Shown here: positions 20,775 to 39,202 of the stretch, one piece after another
How positions within the stretch are numbered: the first letter of the stretch is position 1
How the letters are laid out: each line of letters begins with the position of its first letter
Assembly: GCA_025998755.1 (NCBI GenBank)
Contig: AP024674.1
Span: 2,620,162 to 2,684,161, forward strand
Length of the DNA: 64,000 nucleotides
From: Armatimonadota bacterium
Lineage (GTDB): Bacteria > Armatimonadota > UBA5829 > DSUL01
Reading direction: 5' to 3'
Made by a program: the position numbers and the translations under genes
The notes under the pieces: model-generated
Database searches by the model: none
Seen by the model: only the letters and a program-made list of their open reading frames with translations
Told to the model about the DNA's origin: nothing

Positions 20775-21464
20775 TCAGGGCTGCCAGTAGCCTGCGTCAC
20801 GCTCCGCCACAAGCTGATCATAGCTTGCCCAGCGCGCGTGCCCGTCCAAATAGGAGATAGTTGTGCCGTCGTAATGCACACGGTCCGGAATATCACGCGC
20901 CTCACCCGGACGGGTGATGAAAATGCCGTCGTTGATGCCCACGCTGGTAACTCCCGTGGTGGAATCCTTCGGGTTGCGCGCCTCATGGATGAGCAGCAGC
21001 ATCCGCGTGGGATCCTTGTCGATGGAGGCCACCTTCATCTTATCCAGCGATGAGTTCATGCTGTAAGACAGCGGGAAGTCGCGGATAGTCTTGCCCGGCG
21101 GCGGCGTCACGTTGGCTGGGTTAGCCTCTCGGTTGCGGTCCATCGGGCACAAATAGACTTTCGCAGAGCGGACATAAGGCCAGAGCGTGCCGTTCTCCAC
21201 GTATACCCACTTCTGGCGGTCGCGGACGCTGCCGCACCAGTTGGGGACGGAGTCGCTGCCCCATCCCACGTCCGGCAGACGTCCGTGATAGTCGTCCGCA
21301 TACATCAGCATGGCATTGCTCAGCTGCTTCAGGTTATTGATGCAGCTCGCAGTGTTCGCCCGCATTCTCGCCCTGGAGAATACGGGGAACAGAATGGCTG
21401 CCAGGATGGCAATGATTGCGATGACCACCAGCAGCTCAATGAGTGTGAATCCTCGTCTCTTCAT
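20775..21464 (-). CDS. Prepilin-like secreted protein with H-x-D-G C-terminus
   Basis: The 229-residue protein begins [18 protein letters not shown], the prepilin peptidase motif, followed by [19 protein letters not shown], and ends with the [17 protein letters not shown] segment, the H-X9-DG motif of the DUF1559-like family. These proteins are typical in Planctomycetes and Armatimonadota. Processing after Gly by prepilin peptidase would yield a secreted filament or surface protein. It is a single gene with the hairpin at 20714 behind it. The related gene at 21792 lies just upstream on the same strand. Confidence 0.9.
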
Positions 21465-21791
21465 CGACGTCCCCCGCTAACAACGCCGGCGCGACACGCA
21501 TCAAGCACCGACATGTCTAGAGTAAACCAGCCTTTGCCCCGTGTCAAGGGCTGGTTGTGTCCGGGACTCCTCCGGACGGATCCCGGAGTTCCTACTGGAG
21601 TGCCATATTTTCGGTTCTCCAGCTTCTTTACTTCAGGGTCGGTGGCGATGGGCGGAGGCATGACCACTGTTGACGGCGGCACGTTTTCCGGCTCAGGCCC
21701 TCACCCATAGGGAAAGCGTCCCTCTCGTGGCCTTCCTCAAACTTACACCGCGTTCCCAGCAGGGCGCCGTCTTCGGAATGGGGTGCTCACC
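21465..21791. other. Intergenic spacer between two prepilin genes
   Basis: The stretch contains the upstream region of the 20775 gene and the downstream region of the 21792 gene. I see no convincing ORF, no hairpin with a T-run and no clear promoter here. Confidence 0.3.
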
Positions 21792-22592
21792 TCAGTAGGG
21801 CCACTCGGGACGGATGTAGTAGTCGTTGAACAGATTGAGCCACTCGTTCTTGGGCTTTCCCTGATTGTATGGATGGTCCTCCGGGTAGCGGTACTGCTCA
21901 TAGGTCAGCGTCTGGGTGTGACCGTCCGCCATCACGACGTTGTATCCGAAGACCGGATACTTCATCGTGTGCCACTGGGCGTTCCAGTCCTCGGGCTGAG
22001 GACCGGACTCGCTGACCTGCAGCGGATCCATAAACACAATGGCCCGCGCCGGGACGGGAATGGAGGAAACTTTGGCCGGGCGCCTGAGGCTTGGCTTCCC
22101 TCCCGCATACCAGTCAATGCTCCAGTTCTTGATGGCGAGAGGAGTCCGGTAGGTGTAGCTGGAGCCCAGCCCGCGCGGGTGGGTGGAGGCCGTGGTGCGG
22201 TACAGGTTCTTCACCACGGGGGGCCAACCCGTGCCGCCAGCGTCCGGGCGACGCCAGCGCAGTCCCTTATCGGCCGGGTCGCGCCACGCCTTGTTGTCCT
22301 TCACGTAGGCCTCCATGCACTCCCAGACGAACGGGATGTCCCGGATGGTCTCCGGCGGGCGGTCGTGACGGTCTTCGGCGTCCACCCCGAACGGGGCTAG
22401 GTCTTTGTTGTCGTCCGCATACATGCGGAACGCGACGCCGAGCTGCTTCAGATTGCTGAGACACGCCGCGGATTTGGCGCGTTCGCGCGCCTGCGCGAAC
22501 ACGGGGAAGAGCACCGCCGCCAGGATCGCGATGATGGCGATCACGACGAGGAGCTCAATAAGGGTGAAACCGGCAAACTTTTGTCTTGCCAT
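21792..22592 (-). CDS. Prepilin-like secreted protein with H-x-D-G-type C-terminus
   Basis: The 266-residue product starts [20 protein letters not shown] and continues [20 protein letters not shown], with [16 protein letters not shown], the standard opening of DUF1559-like prepilin proteins. The segment [17 protein letters not shown] gives the DG motif. The upstream ATG at 22619 gives nine additional residues before the Met; the ATG at 22592, with GGAGGAAG upstream, is preferred. Paralogous to the gene at 20775 but the C-terminal domain is different. An extended -10 promoter is at 22618-22626. Confidence 0.9.
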
Positions 22593-22617
22593 AGCCGCTT
22601 CCTCCGCAGACAACGGC

Positions 22618-22626
22618 ATTATACCA
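22618..22626 (-). promoter_or_regulatory. Extended -10 promoter for prepilin gene
   Basis: The minus-strand sequence is TGGTATAAT, a TGn-extended perfect -10 hexamer, 25 bases before the preferred ATG at 22592. Confidence 0.45.
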
Positions 22627-29932: not shown

Positions 29933-31075
29933 ATGGGAACGGAACCGAATGCCCTGAGGGACGCCATATCGGAGGCGCTTGCCCTGGGCAAGAGCGACCC
30001 GAACGAGGCCAGCACCTGTCTATGGATCATCGTGCCCCTCCTGGAGGCAGCCGGCTACCAACGGCATGAAATCCAGCCTCAAGAGACGGACCCAGCAGGC
30101 AGGAAGCCGGACTATACCATCCTGCCGGATTCGGAGCACACCTGGTTTCTGGAAGCCAAGGCGTGGGCCGTGGATCTGAACGACCAGCACGTGCGGCAGG
30201 CGCTGATCTACGCCTACACCAACAACCGGCGATGGGTGGTGCTGACCAACGGCCGCGAATGGCGCCTGTATGACAACAGCATCCCCGGCGAGCTGAGCGG
30301 AAAACTGGTGGCGAAGGCGCGGCTGGAGGATGTGGACGATGTGGAGGAGTTCCTGGCGGCCATCGGGCGGCAGTCCGTGACGGACGGAACGATCGAGCGC
30401 TACGCGCGGGACCGGCTGCTGCGCGCCGCGCTGGAGCAGGAGCTCTGCGACCCGGCAAGCGACCTGGTGAAAGCCGTCTGGACAAGGCTGAGATCCCGCC
30501 CCGGTCTTTCGGGCATTACCAGAGACCAGGTTGCGGCGTTTTTCAGCGGCAGGCCGCCAGGTGACGAGACAAGACCGCCGATGGCGGGTTCGTTCTCCGA
30601 GGAAAGCACATCTGCTAACCCGCCGGCCTTCGCAGGACGTCCTCAGGATTTCCCCGGAGGAAGGTTCACCCTTCAGGTATTGTTGGAGCGGTCAGAACAT
30701 CTTGTGAAAAATCGCAATCCTGGGATTGTCATCTTTCCCGATGGCAGGCAGGAGACGGTCTCGACGTGGAAAGATGCCGCCTGTGCGGTGGTCAAGTGGG
30801 TGGGGGAAGCAAAAGGTCTGCCGCCACTTCCCTTCTCGGCAGTTTACGATAAACGACGTTACTTCTTGAATACTCGGCCGGGCCACCCCAACCCAAAGAC
30901 ATTTCACAGGTTTTGCGAGTTGAGCACCTCCGCGGGGTCCGTCTACATGGACGTGAACCGGAACGCCACCCACCTGGTGCGCTCGATTGTGTCTCTCTGT
31001 GAGACAGTGGGGGTGGTGCCTGAAAGCATACAGGTGCAGGTAAAACCCGGGTGGCGGCCGCCTGTAAGGCGATGA
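29933..31075 (+). CDS. Orphan PD-(D/E)XK nuclease-like protein (type I restriction HsdR N-domain-like)
   Basis: The 380-residue protein has a nuclease core near residues 45-100: the acidic residue in KPDYTIL, then TWFLEAKAW with the E-x-K, and the QALIYAYTNNRRWVVLTNGREW strand-helix that recurs in the N-terminal nuclease domain of type I restriction and related proteins. No helicase domain follows; the C-terminal 150 residues (LLERSEHLVKNRNPG, VSTWKDAACAVVKWVG) are of unknown kind. No HsdM or HsdS gene is near. It starts with ATG after GGAGGAGGG. It may be a stand-alone nuclease or a regulator. Confidence 0.65.
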   Translation: MGTEPNALRDAISEALALGKSDPNEASTCLWIIVPLLEAAGYQRHEIQPQETDPAGRKPDYTILPDSEHTWFLEAKAWAVDLNDQHVRQALIYAYTNNRRWVVLTNGREWRLYDNSIPGELSGKLVAKARLEDVDDVEEFLAAIGRQSVTDGTIERYARDRLLRAALEQELCDPASDLVKAVWTRLRSRPGLSGITRDQVAAFFSGRPPGDETRPPMAGSFSEESTSANPPAFAGRPQDFPGGRFTLQVLLERSEHLVKNRNPGIVIFPDGRQETVSTWKDAACAVVKWVGEAKGLPPLPFSAVYDKRRYFLNTRPGHPNPKTFHRFCELSTSAGSVYMDVNRNATHLVRSIVSLCETVGVVPESIQVQVKPGWRPPVRR

Positions 31076-32045: not shown

Positions 32046-34274
32046 ATGGCAGATCTTGCACGGCGCAACCTGTTGGCGGCGGTCCTGTTGGCCGCCCTGC
32101 TCTTCCTCTGTGCCCCGACCCGTGCCACACCCGTCTGCCTTACCTGCCATTCTGCCCCCACCATGGGCGAAAAACGCGTCACTCGCGAAAGCCTGGCCGG
32201 CTCGCCCCATGCTTCTTTGCAGTGCGTGGAGTGCCACGCCGGCATCCCGGCTCGGGCGGAGATGCACGCCGTGCCCGCTCCCCCACCGGATTGCGCTTCC
32301 TGTCATCTGCCCCCGGGCCGCAAGGGAGCGCCACTGGCGACAGCAGTGCATCACGGTCGGAAGGGGGCGGAAGCTGCGGCGTTGCCCTCCTGCCAATCCT
32401 GCCACGGCGCTCACGAGATGCGCCCGGCGGGTCACCCTCGCTCGAAAGTCAGCCGCCAGAATGTGATGCAGACCTGCGCCGCGTGTCATGGCCCCGGCGG
32501 ACCGGTCGCCGCCCGTACCGGCGAGCGCAGGGTGCTGGACTACCGCGACAGCGTCCACGGACGTCCCGATCCTGACCGGCCCGGGCTGTACCCGGCCGTC
32601 TGCACGGAGTGCCACGGCACGCACAGCATCCTGCCGGGATCGGACCCCGCGTCCACCGTCAGCAAGGTCCGCGCGGCGGACACCTGCGGCGCCTGCCACA
32701 CCGCCGAGCTGAAGGAATACCGTGACAGCATCCATGCAAAGTCGCTCGCGGCAGGTGGCCTCGACGCCCCCTCCTGCGCCGATTGCCACGGCGAGCACGA
32801 CATTCAGCGCGCCACTGCTCCGGGTTCGCGTGTTTCCAGGGTTTCCATCGTTGAGACGTGCGCCCGCTGCCACGAAGACAAGACCCTGATAGACCGGTAC
32901 GGGCTGCCCGCCAACCTGGTGAAGTCCTATCGCAAGAGCTATCACGGCGTGGCGAACCGCTTCGGGGAGGTGGAGGTGGCCAGCTGCAGCAGCTGCCACA
33001 ATCCCCACCGCATCCTCCCGCAGAGTGATCCGCGCTCGTCCATCCACCCGGACAACCTGCCCGCCACGTGCGGGCAGGAAGGATGCCACCCCGGCGTGGG
33101 GCGGAACGTGGCGCTGGGAAGCGTGCATCTGGATCCGTCTCCCACGCGGGACCGCGCGGTCTACTGGGTGAGCATTCTTTTCGGCATTTTCACCTACGGC
33201 ACCATTCTGGGCTTGACTTCACTGGTGGTGCTGGATTCGTTCCGGCGCTGGCGCACGCCGAAGTCTCTTCGCCAGCGGGAGGACAGCGCGGATCCTCTGG
33301 ACCAGGTGAAGGTGCCGCGCTTCACGCGGGTGCAGCTGCTTCAGCATCAGATCCTGCTGACCACGTTCATCCTTCTGGTGATCACGGGGTTCCCCATCAA
33401 ATTCCCGGACTGGACGATCTCGCAGTGGATCATCAATGCGGTGGGCGGGGTGACGGCGCGGGGGGCCATTCACCGGCTTATGGGCGCCATCCTGCTGCTG
33501 GCCGGGGTGTGGCATGTGCTCTGGGTGGTGACCAGTCCGCGCGGCTGGCGGGAGTTCCTTCGCATGCTGCCGGAGCGCGACGACCCCGGGCGCGCTGTCG
33601 GCATCCTGAAGTATTTCTTCGGGCTGAGCAAAGAGTTTCCGCCTTCCGGGAAGTTCTCGCTGTACGAGAAGTTCGACTATATGGCGGTGGGGTGGGGCTC
33701 CGTGATCATGGGGGTGACCGGGCTCGCCCTATGGTTCCCGCACATCGCCCTGCAGATCGCTCCGAAATGGGCGCTGGATGTGTGCCATGTGGTGCACAGC
33801 GATGAAGCGGTGCTGGCGTTCCTGGCTATCACCATCTGGCACTTCTACCACGTGCACTACAAACCCACAATCTGGCCCATGAACACCACCTGGCTGGACG
33901 GGCAGGTGCGTCTGGGAGATCTGAAAGAGGAGCATCGTCTGGAGTACGAGCGCCTGCGCGCCGAACTGGAAGCCGGGGGATTGCCCGCAGTGGAGGAGTC
34001 CTCTGAACCCGCCGGGCCCGAGGCCGCGCAGGAGTCTGCTGTTGAAGAAGCGGGCAAGCCGGAAGCATCGGAGGAGCCTTCAGCTGTTGCTGCTGAGGAA
34101 GAGGCCGCTCACGCGATTCCCGCAGAGCCGGAAGAGGTGGAGACGGCCACACCCGCTGCACAGAAAGAGATCCGCGAGGAGGAGCCAGACGCGGAGGTTG
34201 AAGAGCAGACAGGCCCCGCTCCCGCGGAGCCTTCCGGGCTGCAGGATGCGCCGGGAGAGGAGGAGCAGCGGTGA
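32046..34274 (+). CDS. Multihaem c-type / b-type cytochrome fusion (CbcL-like architecture)
   Basis: The 742-residue protein has a signal peptide (residues 1-28). A periplasmic region follows with ten CxxCH haem-c motifs at about residues 31, 60, 83, 116, 144, 186, 214, 244, 272 and 314, and one CGQEGCH (CX4CH) at 342. From about 373 to 620 it has hydrophobic helices with HQILLTTFILLVITGFPIKF, RLMGAILLLAGVWHVLW and IWHFYHVHYKP, like the HydC/FdnI-type di-haem cytochrome b. The C-terminal 130 residues are acidic, Glu/Pro/Ala-rich. The order (c-haem domain then FdnI-like b domain) is that of CbcL, a Geobacter inner-membrane quinol oxidoreductase. I set the start at 32046 because upstream residues are not signal-like. 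It overlaps the next gene by 4 bases. Confidence 0.85.
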   Translation: MADLARRNLLAAVLLAALLFLCAPTRATPVCLTCHSAPTMGEKRVTRESLAGSPHASLQCVECHAGIPARAEMHAVPAPPPDCASCHLPPGRKGAPLATAVHHGRKGAEAAALPSCQSCHGAHEMRPAGHPRSKVSRQNVMQTCAACHGPGGPVAARTGERRVLDYRDSVHGRPDPDRPGLYPAVCTECHGTHSILPGSDPASTVSKVRAADTCGACHTAELKEYRDSIHAKSLAAGGLDAPSCADCHGEHDIQRATAPGSRVSRVSIVETCARCHEDKTLIDRYGLPANLVKSYRKSYHGVANRFGEVEVASCSSCHNPHRILPQSDPRSSIHPDNLPATCGQEGCHPGVGRNVALGSVHLDPSPTRDRAVYWVSILFGIFTYGTILGLTSLVVLDSFRRWRTPKSLRQREDSADPLDQVKVPRFTRVQLLQHQILLTTFILLVITGFPIKFPDWTISQWIINAVGGVTARGAIHRLMGAILLLAGVWHVLWVVTSPRGWREFLRMLPERDDPGRAVGILKYFFGLSKEFPPSGKFSLYEKFDYMAVGWGSVIMGVTGLALWFPHIALQIAPKWALDVCHVVHSDEAVLAFLAITIWHFYHVHYKPTIWPMNTTWLDGQVRLGDLKEEHRLEYERLRAELEAGGLPAVEESSEPAGPEAAQESAVEEAGKPEASEEPSAVAAEEEAAHAIPAEPEEVETATPAAQKEIREEEPDAEVEEQTGPAPAEPSGLQDAPGEEEQR

Positions 34275-35752
34275 CCCCCGAGCCAGCCGGCAATGCCCGC
34301 AAGAGCGTGCGCGTCCGCATTCTGGCGGCGGTGGTGGTGCTGTTGATAGCCGTGGGCGGCGCGCTGACCTACGCCACGGCGTCTTCCAGCCCCATCGTCT
34401 GCACCCGCTGCCACGAGATGCGCGCCCACTACGTGAGCTGGAAGGCATCCGGGCACAGTCAGGTGCCCTGCGAGGAGTGCCACGTCCAGCCCGGGTTCTG
34501 GACGATGGTGCGGATGAAGTTCCAGAGTGAGGCGCTCATTACCAAACACGCGCGCGAGCCCCGCTCCGGTGAGCTGGTGCGGGCGAATGTCCCGGACGCC
34601 AACTGCGTGAAGTGTCATTCCCGGATGCCCGATGTGGTGACTCGCGGAGGTGTGCAGACTACGCACCGGGGGCACATCGAGCGAGGCATTCCCTGCATCT
34701 ACTGTCATACGGATGCGGGGCACGCCGCGGAGAAGACCGACGCCAAGGCGGCCATGGCCCGCTGCACGGCCTGTCACGACGGGAAGCAGGCGAGCGCCGA
34801 TTGCGCGGTTTGTCACGTGAAGGAGGTTCCTCAGCCCGCTCCTGCCAGCCACATCCAGCTTCAGCAGGTGGATCTGAACCAGATGCCGCACCCGGAGGGC
34901 TTCCGCAACCAGCACGCGGTGGTCGGCCGGAAGCAGGCGGCGCAGTGCGAGTCCTGCCACCGGCCCTATTTCTGCGAGTCGTGCCACAGCGGCAAGATAC
35001 CGGCTTCCCATTCCGCGAAGGACTACCGACGGACCCACGCGGCCGAGGTGGCCGCGGGGCGCACCGACTGCACCCCGTGCCATACGCAGAAGTTCTGTCT
35101 GGCGTGCCACGTCACGGCGCAGCCGGAGTCGCACCGGAAGGGATGGACGAGGGCGCACGGGAAGGCGTCTCTGAAGGCGGATGCCCGCTGCGGCGTGTGC
35201 CATCTGAAGAGCTGGTGCGACGAGTGCCACGGGATGCCGATGCCGCACCCGGCGCGCTATGTGCAGACTCATCCCGACCAGGCATCAAAGAGCCCGAAGC
35301 TTTGCGAAAAGTGCCATTCGCCCTCTTACTGCCAGGCGTGCCACTCGCGCAGCAAGCCGCGCTCGCATCTGACGAAGGGGTTCCTGGACGGCGGACACGG
35401 CCGTCTGTGGCGATCCAACCAGAGATCCTGCGCCACCTGCCACACGTCTCAGAAGTTCTGTGACGACTGCCACACCACGAAGCGGCCAGCCTCCCACGGC
35501 CCGGCCTGGCTGGTGACGCACGGCAAGCCCGCATCCGCCCCGGAGGCGAACTGCTCACTGTGCCATACCCGGGAGACGTGCGGCAAGTGCCACGGACAGG
35601 GAGGCAAGAGACCCTCCAGCCACGGGGCCAACTACGTGATGGGGCATGCGAAGGACGCGAAGGCAGGTATGGCCTCGTGCGCGCTCTGCCATGAGGCAAG
35701 CATGTGCAACGCCTGCCATAAGCCGCTCGGCAAGCCGGAGATCAGCTTCTGA
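34271..35752 (+). CDS. Twenty-haem NapC/NirT-like cytochrome c
   Basis: The 493-residue protein begins with a membrane anchor (residues about 14-38). It has 20 CxxCH motifs, starting at residues 44, 67, 112, 142, 165, 178, 226, 235, 267, 276, 307, 316, 345, 354, 387, 397, 428, 437, 470 and 479. The first is CTRCHEM, with the Met after His typical of NapC/NrfH. From residue 226 on, haems come in seven pairs with four or five residues between them (CESCHRPYFCESCH style), spaced about 30-45 residues apart. It starts with GTG overlapping the previous stop (GTGA), so the two are coupled. I infer electron transfer from quinol via the fusion cytochrome to this shuttle. Confidence 0.88.
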   Translation: MTPEPAGNARKSVRVRILAAVVVLLIAVGGALTYATASSSPIVCTRCHEMRAHYVSWKASGHSQVPCEECHVQPGFWTMVRMKFQSEALITKHAREPRSGELVRANVPDANCVKCHSRMPDVVTRGGVQTTHRGHIERGIPCIYCHTDAGHAAEKTDAKAAMARCTACHDGKQASADCAVCHVKEVPQPAPASHIQLQQVDLNQMPHPEGFRNQHAVVGRKQAAQCESCHRPYFCESCHSGKIPASHSAKDYRRTHAAEVAAGRTDCTPCHTQKFCLACHVTAQPESHRKGWTRAHGKASLKADARCGVCHLKSWCDECHGMPMPHPARYVQTHPDQASKSPKLCEKCHSPSYCQACHSRSKPRSHLTKGFLDGGHGRLWRSNQRSCATCHTSQKFCDDCHTTKRPASHGPAWLVTHGKPASAPEANCSLCHTRETCGKCHGQGGKRPSSHGANYVMGHAKDAKAGMASCALCHEASMCNACHKPLGKPEISF

Positions 35753-37044: not shown

Positions 37045-39069
37045 TTATTTCTGCTCCAGCTTGTCGGTGAGGGTGTAAAGCATACCCAGCAGCGGACCCC
37101 TGCGCACCCAGGCGCGTCCCACGCTCTCCGGGATCTGAATGTCAAGGCCGGCCTCCTGGAACCACCGGCGGAGCTGATTTGGAGTGATGGATTCCAGCGG
37201 CCGGAACTCCCCCTGCTGCAGCTCGCGCTGGAACAGTCCCCGCTGAGCCAGGGCATTGATGGCTGCGGCGGCCGGATGATCCGCCGGAACGTCCACGAAG
37301 GACCCTTTCACCCTTTGCGGGCGTTTGGACCACAGCCCCAGCCGCCGGGCCAGGTCCAGGTACTGGGCCGCCTCGGCCCGGGTGGCGGGCACGTTCTGCT
37401 TGGAGAAGTAGGTGGGGAACATGGAACCCCCGTGCGTCGCGAAGAACTGGATGGCCTTCGCGTGCGGGTCTGTGAACTGCACGTCCTCAAAGAACATCAG
37501 TACCGCGCCGTCTTCCAGAAGCTGTCTCTGCAGACGCAGGATGTCCACCCGGCGGACGTCCACGCCGCTTTTGATGGCAAGATGCGCGGCGGTTCCTCCG
37601 GCCTGGCCCATGGCCATCCAGCAGGGCTCCATCCTCAGCGTGCTGAACCCCATATGCGTCCCGGAGATGGCCCCCGTGACCAGCAGGCCTTCCACTTTCT
37701 GAGGGACGATGACACCGTACGGCACCTGGTACGGCTGAGAATACTGCCAGACCCCCAGCAGACCTTCCAGCACCGGATATCCTGGCTCGTATTTCCGGGT
37801 GGCGTGGCTGTCCATCTCGTAGGAGCCGCATCCGATGGACGTGCGCTGGACGGGCGTGCGGTCCAGACGGGGATCCAGCAGGCAGTCCTGAGCGCGGAAG
37901 TCGTACTCTCCCACGATCCGCCGGGCCTCGCGCACATAAATCTGGCGGGGAAAGTTGCCATTGTCCGTGTACTCATCGGCTGCCAACCCCCACCTGCGCG
38001 CCTCCGCCCGGAAGCTCTCCGGCAGGGTGGGGTCGTTCTGGCAGAAGTAGAGAAGGCCCAGAGTGTAGTCTCTCAGGCGCTCGGCGAACTTCTCGCGCCA
38101 TTCCCAGCTTGCCTCCGGGTATGGGTAGTTCTCCTCCGGCAGGTCGGTGGAGAGAAGCGGGATGGTGTGGTTGTTGGTGTCGCTCTTCCCGTTCGGCATG
38201 CGGACCACGTGGACCACGTCGTGGAAGCTCTTCACCTGGCCGGCCCAGATCTGCCGCCGCAGGATGCGATACTCCCGCGGGTCGTAGTTGGCCGGCTTTT
38301 CAATTGCCACCCGGTTTCCCGGCCTGTCGGTCAGGCAGAGGCGGTAGTTGTAAGCCTGAATGCGGTCATCGCCTTCGCCGGTGGACTCGTCGTCATAGTA
38401 GACTTTGTCCTGGTATCCCCAGTAGATGACGCCCGCATAGGGCTCTCCGTGCAGGCTGCGCGGCTCGCGCCCCACACGGTACGGCACGCCCGCCATTGCC
38501 GCCAGGTCGCCCTCGTAGGTGGCGTCAATGAAGACCCGAGCCCGCACCGCATGCCGCTCACCCGTCTCCAGGCTCCGGAATGTGAAGGCAATCAGGCGGT
38601 TGCCCCTTTTCTGCACGGATTCCAACTCGCAGCGTCGGAAAACGGTGATGCGATCCTTCTGCTCCGCCAGCATCCGTTCGAAGAGCAACTCCGCGACGTG
38701 GGGCTCGAAAAAGTATCCGCTGTTGCAATCTTTTACCTGCTGAGAGTCCTCTCCATATTCCTTCGCGTAGTAGTCGCGAACCGAGCGCACGAATTCCAGA
38801 AAGATACCGCCCACCGCTCCGCGCTTCTTGATGTCAGTTGCGCCCAGGCCGTTGGCCATCAGGCCGCCGATGTGCGCGTTGCGGTCCACCAGCACCACGG
38901 TGGAGCCCAAGCGGGCGGCAGCCAGCGCGGCCGCGATCCCGCTGGGCGTGCCACCGTAGATGGCGATATCGGTGGAGTGGGGCTCGCCTTGCGGGGCCGC
39001 CCCAGTCGGGGCCGCAATCGCCAGGGCTCCCGTCAGGATAAGCAAAAGGGTCTTGACGTTGAGTCTCAT
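37045..39069 (-). CDS. Exported FAD-dependent oxidoreductase with SLH-like C-terminal segment
   Basis: The 674-residue product starts with a signal peptide (MRLNVKTLLLILTGALAIAA, residues 1-22). A Rossmann nucleotide-binding motif follows, TDIAIYGGTPSGIAAALAAA, with VVLVDRNAHIGGLMANG, as in the FAD_oxidored family (PF12831). Near the end it has FVDVPADHPAAAAINALAQR and FRPLESITPNQLRRWFQ, resembling an S-layer homology (SLH) repeat. The enzyme should act outside the inner membrane; substrate unknown. I set the start at 39069 because of GGAGGAAAGG upstream and the signal peptide. Confidence 0.82.
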   Translation of the reverse strand: MRLNVKTLLLILTGALAIAAPTGAAPQGEPHSTDIAIYGGTPSGIAAALAAARLGSTVVLVDRNAHIGGLMANGLGATDIKKRGAVGGIFLEFVRSVRDYYAKEYGEDSQQVKDCNSGYFFEPHVAELLFERMLAEQKDRITVFRRCELESVQKRGNRLIAFTFRSLETGERHAVRARVFIDATYEGDLAAMAGVPYRVGREPRSLHGEPYAGVIYWGYQDKVYYDDESTGEGDDRIQAYNYRLCLTDRPGNRVAIEKPANYDPREYRILRRQIWAGQVKSFHDVVHVVRMPNGKSDTNNHTIPLLSTDLPEENYPYPEASWEWREKFAERLRDYTLGLLYFCQNDPTLPESFRAEARRWGLAADEYTDNGNFPRQIYVREARRIVGEYDFRAQDCLLDPRLDRTPVQRTSIGCGSYEMDSHATRKYEPGYPVLEGLLGVWQYSQPYQVPYGVIVPQKVEGLLVTGAISGTHMGFSTLRMEPCWMAMGQAGGTAAHLAIKSGVDVRRVDILRLQRQLLEDGAVLMFFEDVQFTDPHAKAIQFFATHGGSMFPTYFSKQNVPATRAEAAQYLDLARRLGLWSKRPQRVKGSFVDVPADHPAAAAINALAQRGLFQRELQQGEFRPLESITPNQLRRWFQEAGLDIQIPESVGRAWVRRGPLLGMLYTLTDKLEQK

Positions 39070-39202
39070 GGTGTCACGGTCCTTTCCTCCCGCTCGGGGC
39101 GGGCACGTGGCAGGCTCCTTTGCTGCCGAACGCGGACATCGCCTGCCTCGTTGTGTTTGCACAGGATACCCTTACGCTCCCCCGCCGGGCAAGCGGTGTG
39201 GC

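Follow-up and report, generated by a model that had tools for sequence, protein, structure and literature searches.

Inner-membrane cytochromes of the CbcL/MtrH/MtoC family, which occur in Geobacter, Rhodoferax, Dechloromonas and Gallionella, carry 3-23 CX2CH motifs in 416-1034 amino acids, and some of their genes adjoin mtrAB or mtoAB (PMC6295460). The PCC3 systems of neutrophilic iron oxidisers contain a periplasmic multihaem cytochrome (MHC) with a median of ~21 haems, which is built from repeats and proposed to span the periplasm, together with a b-haem-like inner-membrane protein (PMC5566968). In anaerobic methanotrophic (ANME) archaea, Mco combines a hydrogenase/formate dehydrogenase-type cytochrome b with a multihaem cytochrome to form a quinone-analogue:cytochrome c oxidoreductase (PMC9012536). 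Whether soluble shuttles or fixed wires take electrons over the periplasm from a quinol oxidase to an outer-membrane conduit is still argued. Here, we describe a two-gene operon in a 64,000-nucleotide stretch (the window, 64 kb) of contig AP024674.1 of an Armatimonadota bacterium. Gene A encodes a multihaem cytochrome c/cytochrome b fusion and gene B a membrane-anchored 20-haem cytochrome, and the two products probably work together, A as a quinone oxidoreductase similar to CbcL/MtrH/MtoC and B as its tethered, modular haem wire, to connect the quinone pool with a conduit of the MtrAB type.

Compared by published description, the product of gene A resembles the CbcL/MtrH/MtoC proteins in that a multihaem c domain at the N-terminus is followed, in one polypeptide, by a di-haem b domain of the HydC/FdnI type. 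The family members usually have six helices (four or five in a few), whereas the model of A has five besides the signal peptide, and the acidic C-terminal tail and the GTGA-coupled 20-haem partner are further differences. No CbcL family model was found among the Pfam or NCBIfam matches. Mco differs from the A-B pair in being archaeal, in its VhtC-type b subunit, in its 7-11 haems and in its separate genes. The features of A are as follows.

32046..34274, + strand: gene A, CbcL/MtrH/MtoC-like multihaem c/cytochrome b fusion, 742 aa (translation, Pfam, model)
32046..32126, + strand: predicted signal peptide-like N-terminus, residues ~1-27 (hydropathy; helix 2-22 in the model)
32136..33089, + strand: periplasmic c domain, ten CxxCH and one CX4CH, residues 31-348 (translation, Pfam, alignment)
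33069..33089, + strand: CX4CH (CGQEGCH), the 11th haem motif (alignment of 14 sequences)
33153..33254, + strand: transmembrane helix 1, residues 370-403, linking the c and b domains (model)
33318..33860, + strand: FdnI-type cytochrome b domain, residues 425-605, four helices (Pfam; PDB profile match 1kqf_C; Foldseek)
33345..33347, + strand: His434, aligned to FdnI ligand H18 (alignment)
33471..33473, + strand: His476, aligned to FdnI ligand H57 (alignment)
33513..33515, + strand: His490, invariant, 14 residues past His476, with no counterpart among the FdnI ligands (alignment)
33795..33797, + strand: His584, aligned to FdnI ligand H155 (alignment)
33840..33842, + strand: His599, aligned to FdnI ligand H169 (alignment)
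33966..34271, + strand: acidic Glu/Ala/Pro-rich tail, residues 641-742 (composition; predicted local distance difference test (pLDDT) mostly 33-43)

The translation of A places CxxCH motifs at residues 31, 60, 83, 116, 144, 186, 214, 244, 272 and 314, and the CX4CH motif at residue 342. At the latter site, the first Cys of the haem motif is kept in all 14 aligned sequences, in the form of either CxxCH or CX4CH; because the site thus aligns with a conserved haem motif, A probably binds 11 c haems, and the operon 31. Two thousand residue shuffles of each protein yielded a mean of 0.04 CxxCH for A and 0.26 for B, with maxima of just 2 and 3, respectively, so that the CxxCH richness of both is far from chance. 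The Pfam domains of A are Cytochrome_C7, Cytochrom_c3_2 and Ni_hydr_CYTB. An earlier sequence-only reading of this DNA had described A as ten CxxCH and one CX4CH motifs fused to a multi-helix cytochrome b domain, and the translation, the Pfam matches and the model all bear this out.

For the b domain, Ni_hydr_CYTB covers residues 425-605, and NCBIfam's model for the formate dehydrogenase gamma subunit aligns there too, with a score below its cut-off. A profile built from 26 related b domains retrieved Escherichia coli FdnI (1kqf_C) from the PDB with an E value of 7e-16. The AlphaFold2 model of A is confident in the membrane part (pLDDT ~80-90), which contains five helices, and a Foldseek search with it against the PDB gave 1kqf_C as the sole significant match (TM score 0.81 to the target). 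FdnI residues H18, H57, H155 and H169, numbered by counting from the alignment, are the haem ligands of that protein. A lack of the four b-haem ligands had been named beforehand as grounds for rejecting the quinol-oxidase reading; A has all four counterparts, each conserved in no fewer than 96% of the sequences in an alignment of 27 b domains, and His490 is present in all of them. These sequence and model comparisons show that the predicted b domain of A has an FdnI-type di-haem fold with the full ligand set. The acidic tail that follows is probably cytoplasmic and disordered.

Gene B begins with a GTG that overlaps the TGA stop codon of A, and its features are as follows.

34271..34274, + strand: GTGA, overlap of the A stop and the B start (recurs in relatives)
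34271..35752, + strand: gene B, membrane-anchored 20-haem cytochrome, 493 aa, GTG start (translation, Pfam, NCBIfam)
34298..34729, + strand: NapC/NrfH-like N-terminal part, residues 10-153, with anchor helix 17-35 and a CxxCHxM first haem (Pfam, NCBIfam, 2j7a_C)
34763..35716, + strand: haem array, residues 165-482, eight paired-CxxCH units, the last seven 38-42 residues apart (motif spacing)

The translation of B contains exactly 20 CxxCH motifs, the first being CTRCHEM, and a single predicted anchor helix (residues 17-35), as had been read from the DNA along with the GTGA coupling. The NapC-like nature proposed for it also holds, in that Cytochrom_NNT (NapC/NirT) matches residues 10-153 with 36.5 bits against a Pfam cut-off of 24.1. 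The NrfH equivalog TIGR03153 scores 52.3 bits, under its curated cut-off of 134.2, and the head aligns to the solved NrfH 2j7a_C with an E value of 4e-5. B shares with NrfH, NapC, NirT and CymA one anchor helix, a four-haem head and the CxxCHxM motif, but adds 16 haems, mostly paired, and no NrfA-type gene adjoins it. The suggested comparison with ImcH did not hold: ImcH is defined by three helices in most members and 6-10 haem motifs including CX3CH (PMC6295460), and B, with one helix, 20 CxxCH and no CX3CH, does not fit this pattern and was dropped as an ImcH candidate.

The head also bears on which subunit meets the quinone. Lys82 and Asp89 belong to the menaquinol site of NrfH; the K82 position is Lys in B, and the D89 position is Ile and is not conserved as Asp in the relatives. 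Because B keeps the Lys but not the Asp, A is likelier than B to be the quinone-active subunit. That B would instead be the quinol oxidase, in the manner of NrfH or CymA, while A would either store electrons in an accessory role or offer another quinol site independent of B, is very unlikely: the CxxCHxM first haem and the Lys would agree with such a role, but the Asp is missing, A-type genes often occur without B (74 versus 36 genomes of the phylum set described below), and A has a complete b domain of its own.

The array of B is modular. Its relatives carry 16, 20, 25, 28 or 32 haems, by addition of ~40-residue two-haem units, and the whole of B contains 21 non-motif His alongside the 20 haem motifs. 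Using the rule of thumb that 24 haems make an 18 nm wire (PMC11520253), we estimate fully extended lengths of ~15 nm for B, ~21 nm for the 28-haem form and ~24 nm for the 32-haem form. By description, B resembles the PCC3 periplasmic MHC in haem number and repeat build; however, B has its own membrane anchor in the NapC/NrfH head, it is paired with a CbcL-type fusion and not with a five-helix inner-membrane protein, and the porin lies outside the cluster in the window. No porin was seen in the window, so the single cluster by which PCC3 is recognised (porin, extracellular and periplasmic MHCs, and an inner-membrane protein with five transmembrane helices) is not found there, and the window contains no multihaem gene besides A and B.

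The sequence-only reading had seen no reductase or conduit gene next to the operon. The same genome, however, encodes an MtrA+MtrB-type conduit 550 kb away, at 3.20 Mb, where a decahaem gene is followed by an MtrB/PioB porin gene. The decahaem scores 283.7 bits for TIGR03508 (DmsE/MtrA-type; cut-off 192.2) and the porin 269.1 bits for TIGR03509 (cut-off 240) and 345 bits for PF11854. The pair thus passes both family cut-offs, and it matches the solved MtrA and MtrB (decahaem to 6r2q_A, E 2e-72; porin to 6r2q_B, E 2e-17). It is thereby of the MtrAB, MtoAB and PioAB kind; it would be the partner of the operon and not a member of it, and no MtrC is linked to it.

The spread of these genes was followed in two sets, a relatives set of 61 genomes (our own and 60 relatives) and a phylum set of 237 genomes with completeness of at least 85%; below, G numbers denote genomes, G000 being our own, and L numbers denote loci. 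A was matched in 34 and B in 31 of the 61 genomes of the relatives set. In the phylum set, a strong A-type b domain, by a cut of our own choosing, is present in 74 of 237 genomes, and B (cut 1e-30) in 36, of which 34 also have A. The sequence-only reading had known of no such operon in this lineage, but it is common in the phylum. Nine loci (L021, L046, L051, L052, L055, L058, L059, L060 and L061) have A followed by B with the identical 4-base overlap, and many relatives encode the c and b parts of A as two individual genes. In L052 and L053, two b-domain and two c-domain genes stand in a row ahead of the long cytochrome, which is a tandem duplication of a split A. Scanning named genomes with B yielded the sister genome and, beyond it, nothing but distant 22-haem cytochromes (L022-L025), and a search of a plasmid collection for A relatives retrieved none.

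A decahaem match is present in 84 of the 237 genomes, 57 of which also have the A-type b domain. Decahaem genes occur in 57/74 A-positive but 27/163 other genomes (Fisher p 3e-19, uncorrected for kinship and with an author-chosen decahaem cut), and within 15 kb of A in 25 of the 74. In G037, G028 and G054, a decahaem gene and a probable porin gene lie beside the operon; the porins of G028 and G037 have weak or no family matches, and a further multihaem gene is also found around the operon in these two. In G034, a single 1001-aa MtrA-MtrB fusion is encoded upstream of the operon.

These results argue for the following route. A and B would be the two subunits of a single complex in the inner membrane, through which the menaquinone pool and the outer membrane exchange electrons. 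The FdnI-type di-haem b domain of A would oxidise (or reduce) quinone, and electrons would then pass via the 11 periplasmic c haems of A to B. B, held by one helix and its NrfH-like head, would conduct them across the periplasm through the paired-haem array and hand them over to the MtrA-like decahaem, which would sit inside the MtrB-type porin of the distant conduit locus. MtrA/MtrB would in turn exchange electrons with a partner outside the cell, for example iron minerals or humics. The quinone activity, the A-B and B-MtrA contacts, the substrate and the direction are all putative steps of this route. The genome contains cytochrome c assembly genes and futalosine-type menaquinone genes. The haem chain of the solved MtrA is 80 Å long, with its first haem ~20 Å inside the periplasm (PMC7198977); because the chain reaches only that far, the remaining periplasm needs bridging, for which B is a natural candidate. 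The evidence thus favours the earlier proposal, in which a quinol oxidoreductase of the inner membrane feeds a haem wire in the periplasm and the pair perhaps serves extracellular electron transfer.

Several observations weigh against this route. The conduit is unlinked to the operon, 17 A-positive genomes have no strong decahaem match, and the AlphaFold2 model of B (pLDDT 45) is too poor to support a wire shape. An MtrC-like surface cytochrome was found neither beside the conduit nor among the CxxCH matches listed, from a survey in which the final part of the chromosome was covered by the PF14537 search alone. In addition, the genome encodes other periplasmic acceptors, NrfA and an octahaem cytochrome. 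These acceptors, and NrfH being the closest curated model to the head of B, would suit an arrangement outside any extracellular route, in which A and B supply NrfA, the octahaem cytochrome or some other soluble acceptor as the terminal reductase in the periplasm. We consider this unlikely, as NrfA has its own adjacent NrfH gene (TIGR03153 156 bits; nrfHA pair at L084:9226-11078), and a 20-haem array far exceeds the need of a short hop. A terminal reductase in the operons of the homologues had also been named as a refuting observation; none was recognised adjoining the operon at the inspected loci of relatives, several of which have decahaem and porin genes. Since nrfHA is encoded separately, B was dropped as a candidate part of NrfHA.

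The direction of electron flow in the proposed quinone-to-conduit route is not readable from the sequence, because the CbcL/MtrH/MtoC family serves both directions and our conduit, without a linked MtrC, resembles MtoAB/PioAB; export is slightly favoured. Were the flow inward, Fe(II) or minerals outside the cell would donate electrons to the MtrAB/MtoAB-type conduit, and A would reduce quinone; this would supply either alternative complex III with the caa3 oxidase or reverse electron flow. The occurrence of CbcL/MtrH/MtoC homologues in Fe(III) reducers and Fe(II) oxidisers alike (PMC6295460) and the Katase circular Armatimonadota metagenome-assembled genome (MAG) mg024, which carries MtoAB and has been read as a possible Fe(II) oxidiser (PMC9671151), speak for this direction. 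So do the MtoAB/PioAB-like lack of a linked surface cytochrome and the cluster of alternative complex III with cytochrome oxidase genes in our genome (L085:1180-14257). However, an MtrC missing beside the porin is still compatible with export, as unlinked partners exist. FdnI-type b domains are usually paired with low-potential quinones, which Fe(II) would reduce only uphill. Taken together, inward flow is possible, but we hold it to be the less probable direction.

More tentatively, B may be a tethered haem cable that spans most of the periplasm and touches the MtrA-type conduit directly, in place of soluble shuttles, with its length set by gain or loss of two-haem units (16-32 haems in relatives) and with the same array joined, across the phylum, to three kinds of module that act on quinone (CbcL-type, Rieske/cytochrome b and NrfD/molybdoenzyme); we would not count this extended picture as likely. 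At L047, L048, L056, L062, L071, L073 and L075, a cytochrome b/b6-type protein carries the paired-haem array as a fusion (700-816 aa, 13-17 CxxCH), with a Rieske-like gene adjoining. At L074 and L076, an operon of genes for 4Fe-4S, NrfD and molybdoenzyme proteins is followed by a 20-21 haem cytochrome bearing a B-type array.

CbcL-type fusions, NrfH heads, long periplasmic haem chains and Armatimonadota MtoAB, the last reported in the circular MAG above (PMC9671151), are all known already, and membrane-embedded multihaem cytochromes of unknown function have been noted in another Armatimonadota (PMC11788075). The 2018 survey of CbcL/MtrH/MtoC lists no Armatimonadetes (PMC6295460). In the literature searched, which was part of the whole, there was no paper linking Armatimonadota with CbcL and no description of the coupled A-B pair or of a tethered, unit-variable wire. 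The operon is related to known metal-breathing systems and little described in this lineage, and the novelty lies in the tethered, length-variable wire and its frequency in the phylum. A wire that is anchored at one end, coupled at the gene level and variable by two-haem units offers a direct test of haem number against periplasm width and of shuttle-free reduction of MtrA, and a large, hardly cultivated phylum joins those with a plausible extracellular electron route.

Some further observations concern the conduit genes. The porin gene of our genome (L097:6751-9943) is set apart by its 345 bits for PF11854, all other genomes of the phylum sample scoring 44 or less, and it was possibly acquired from outside; G003, of the same family as our genome, has fragments of a homologue. 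The G034 frame (L049:2324-5326) joins an MtrA-type decahaem to an MtrB/porin-like barrel that ends in Phe and has one extra CxxCH at residue 534, and it may be a one-polypeptide porin-cytochrome conduit. Single frames of 980-1050 aa with an MtrA-type decahaem and a long C-terminal part are found in G034, G204, G048, G205 and G208.

Among the matches listed, the other multihaem genes of the genome are those for NrfHA, alternative complex III with its oxidase, an octahaem Multi-haem_cyto protein and a seven-haem C554-like protein. The octahaem gene (L083:9077-10393, at 0.333 Mb) is a lone gene of the Multi-haem_cyto/hydrazine-dehydrogenase-like type with no obvious partner gene. Within the window, positions 29933-31075 encode a lone protein that weakly matches the N-terminal part of type I restriction HsdR, no restriction partner being seen adjoining. 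Positions 20778-22619 contain two prepilin-like genes with near-identical N-terminal segments, and positions 37045-39162 encode an FAD-dependent oxidoreductase (PF12831) whose C-terminal part weakly matches the S-layer-homology domain.

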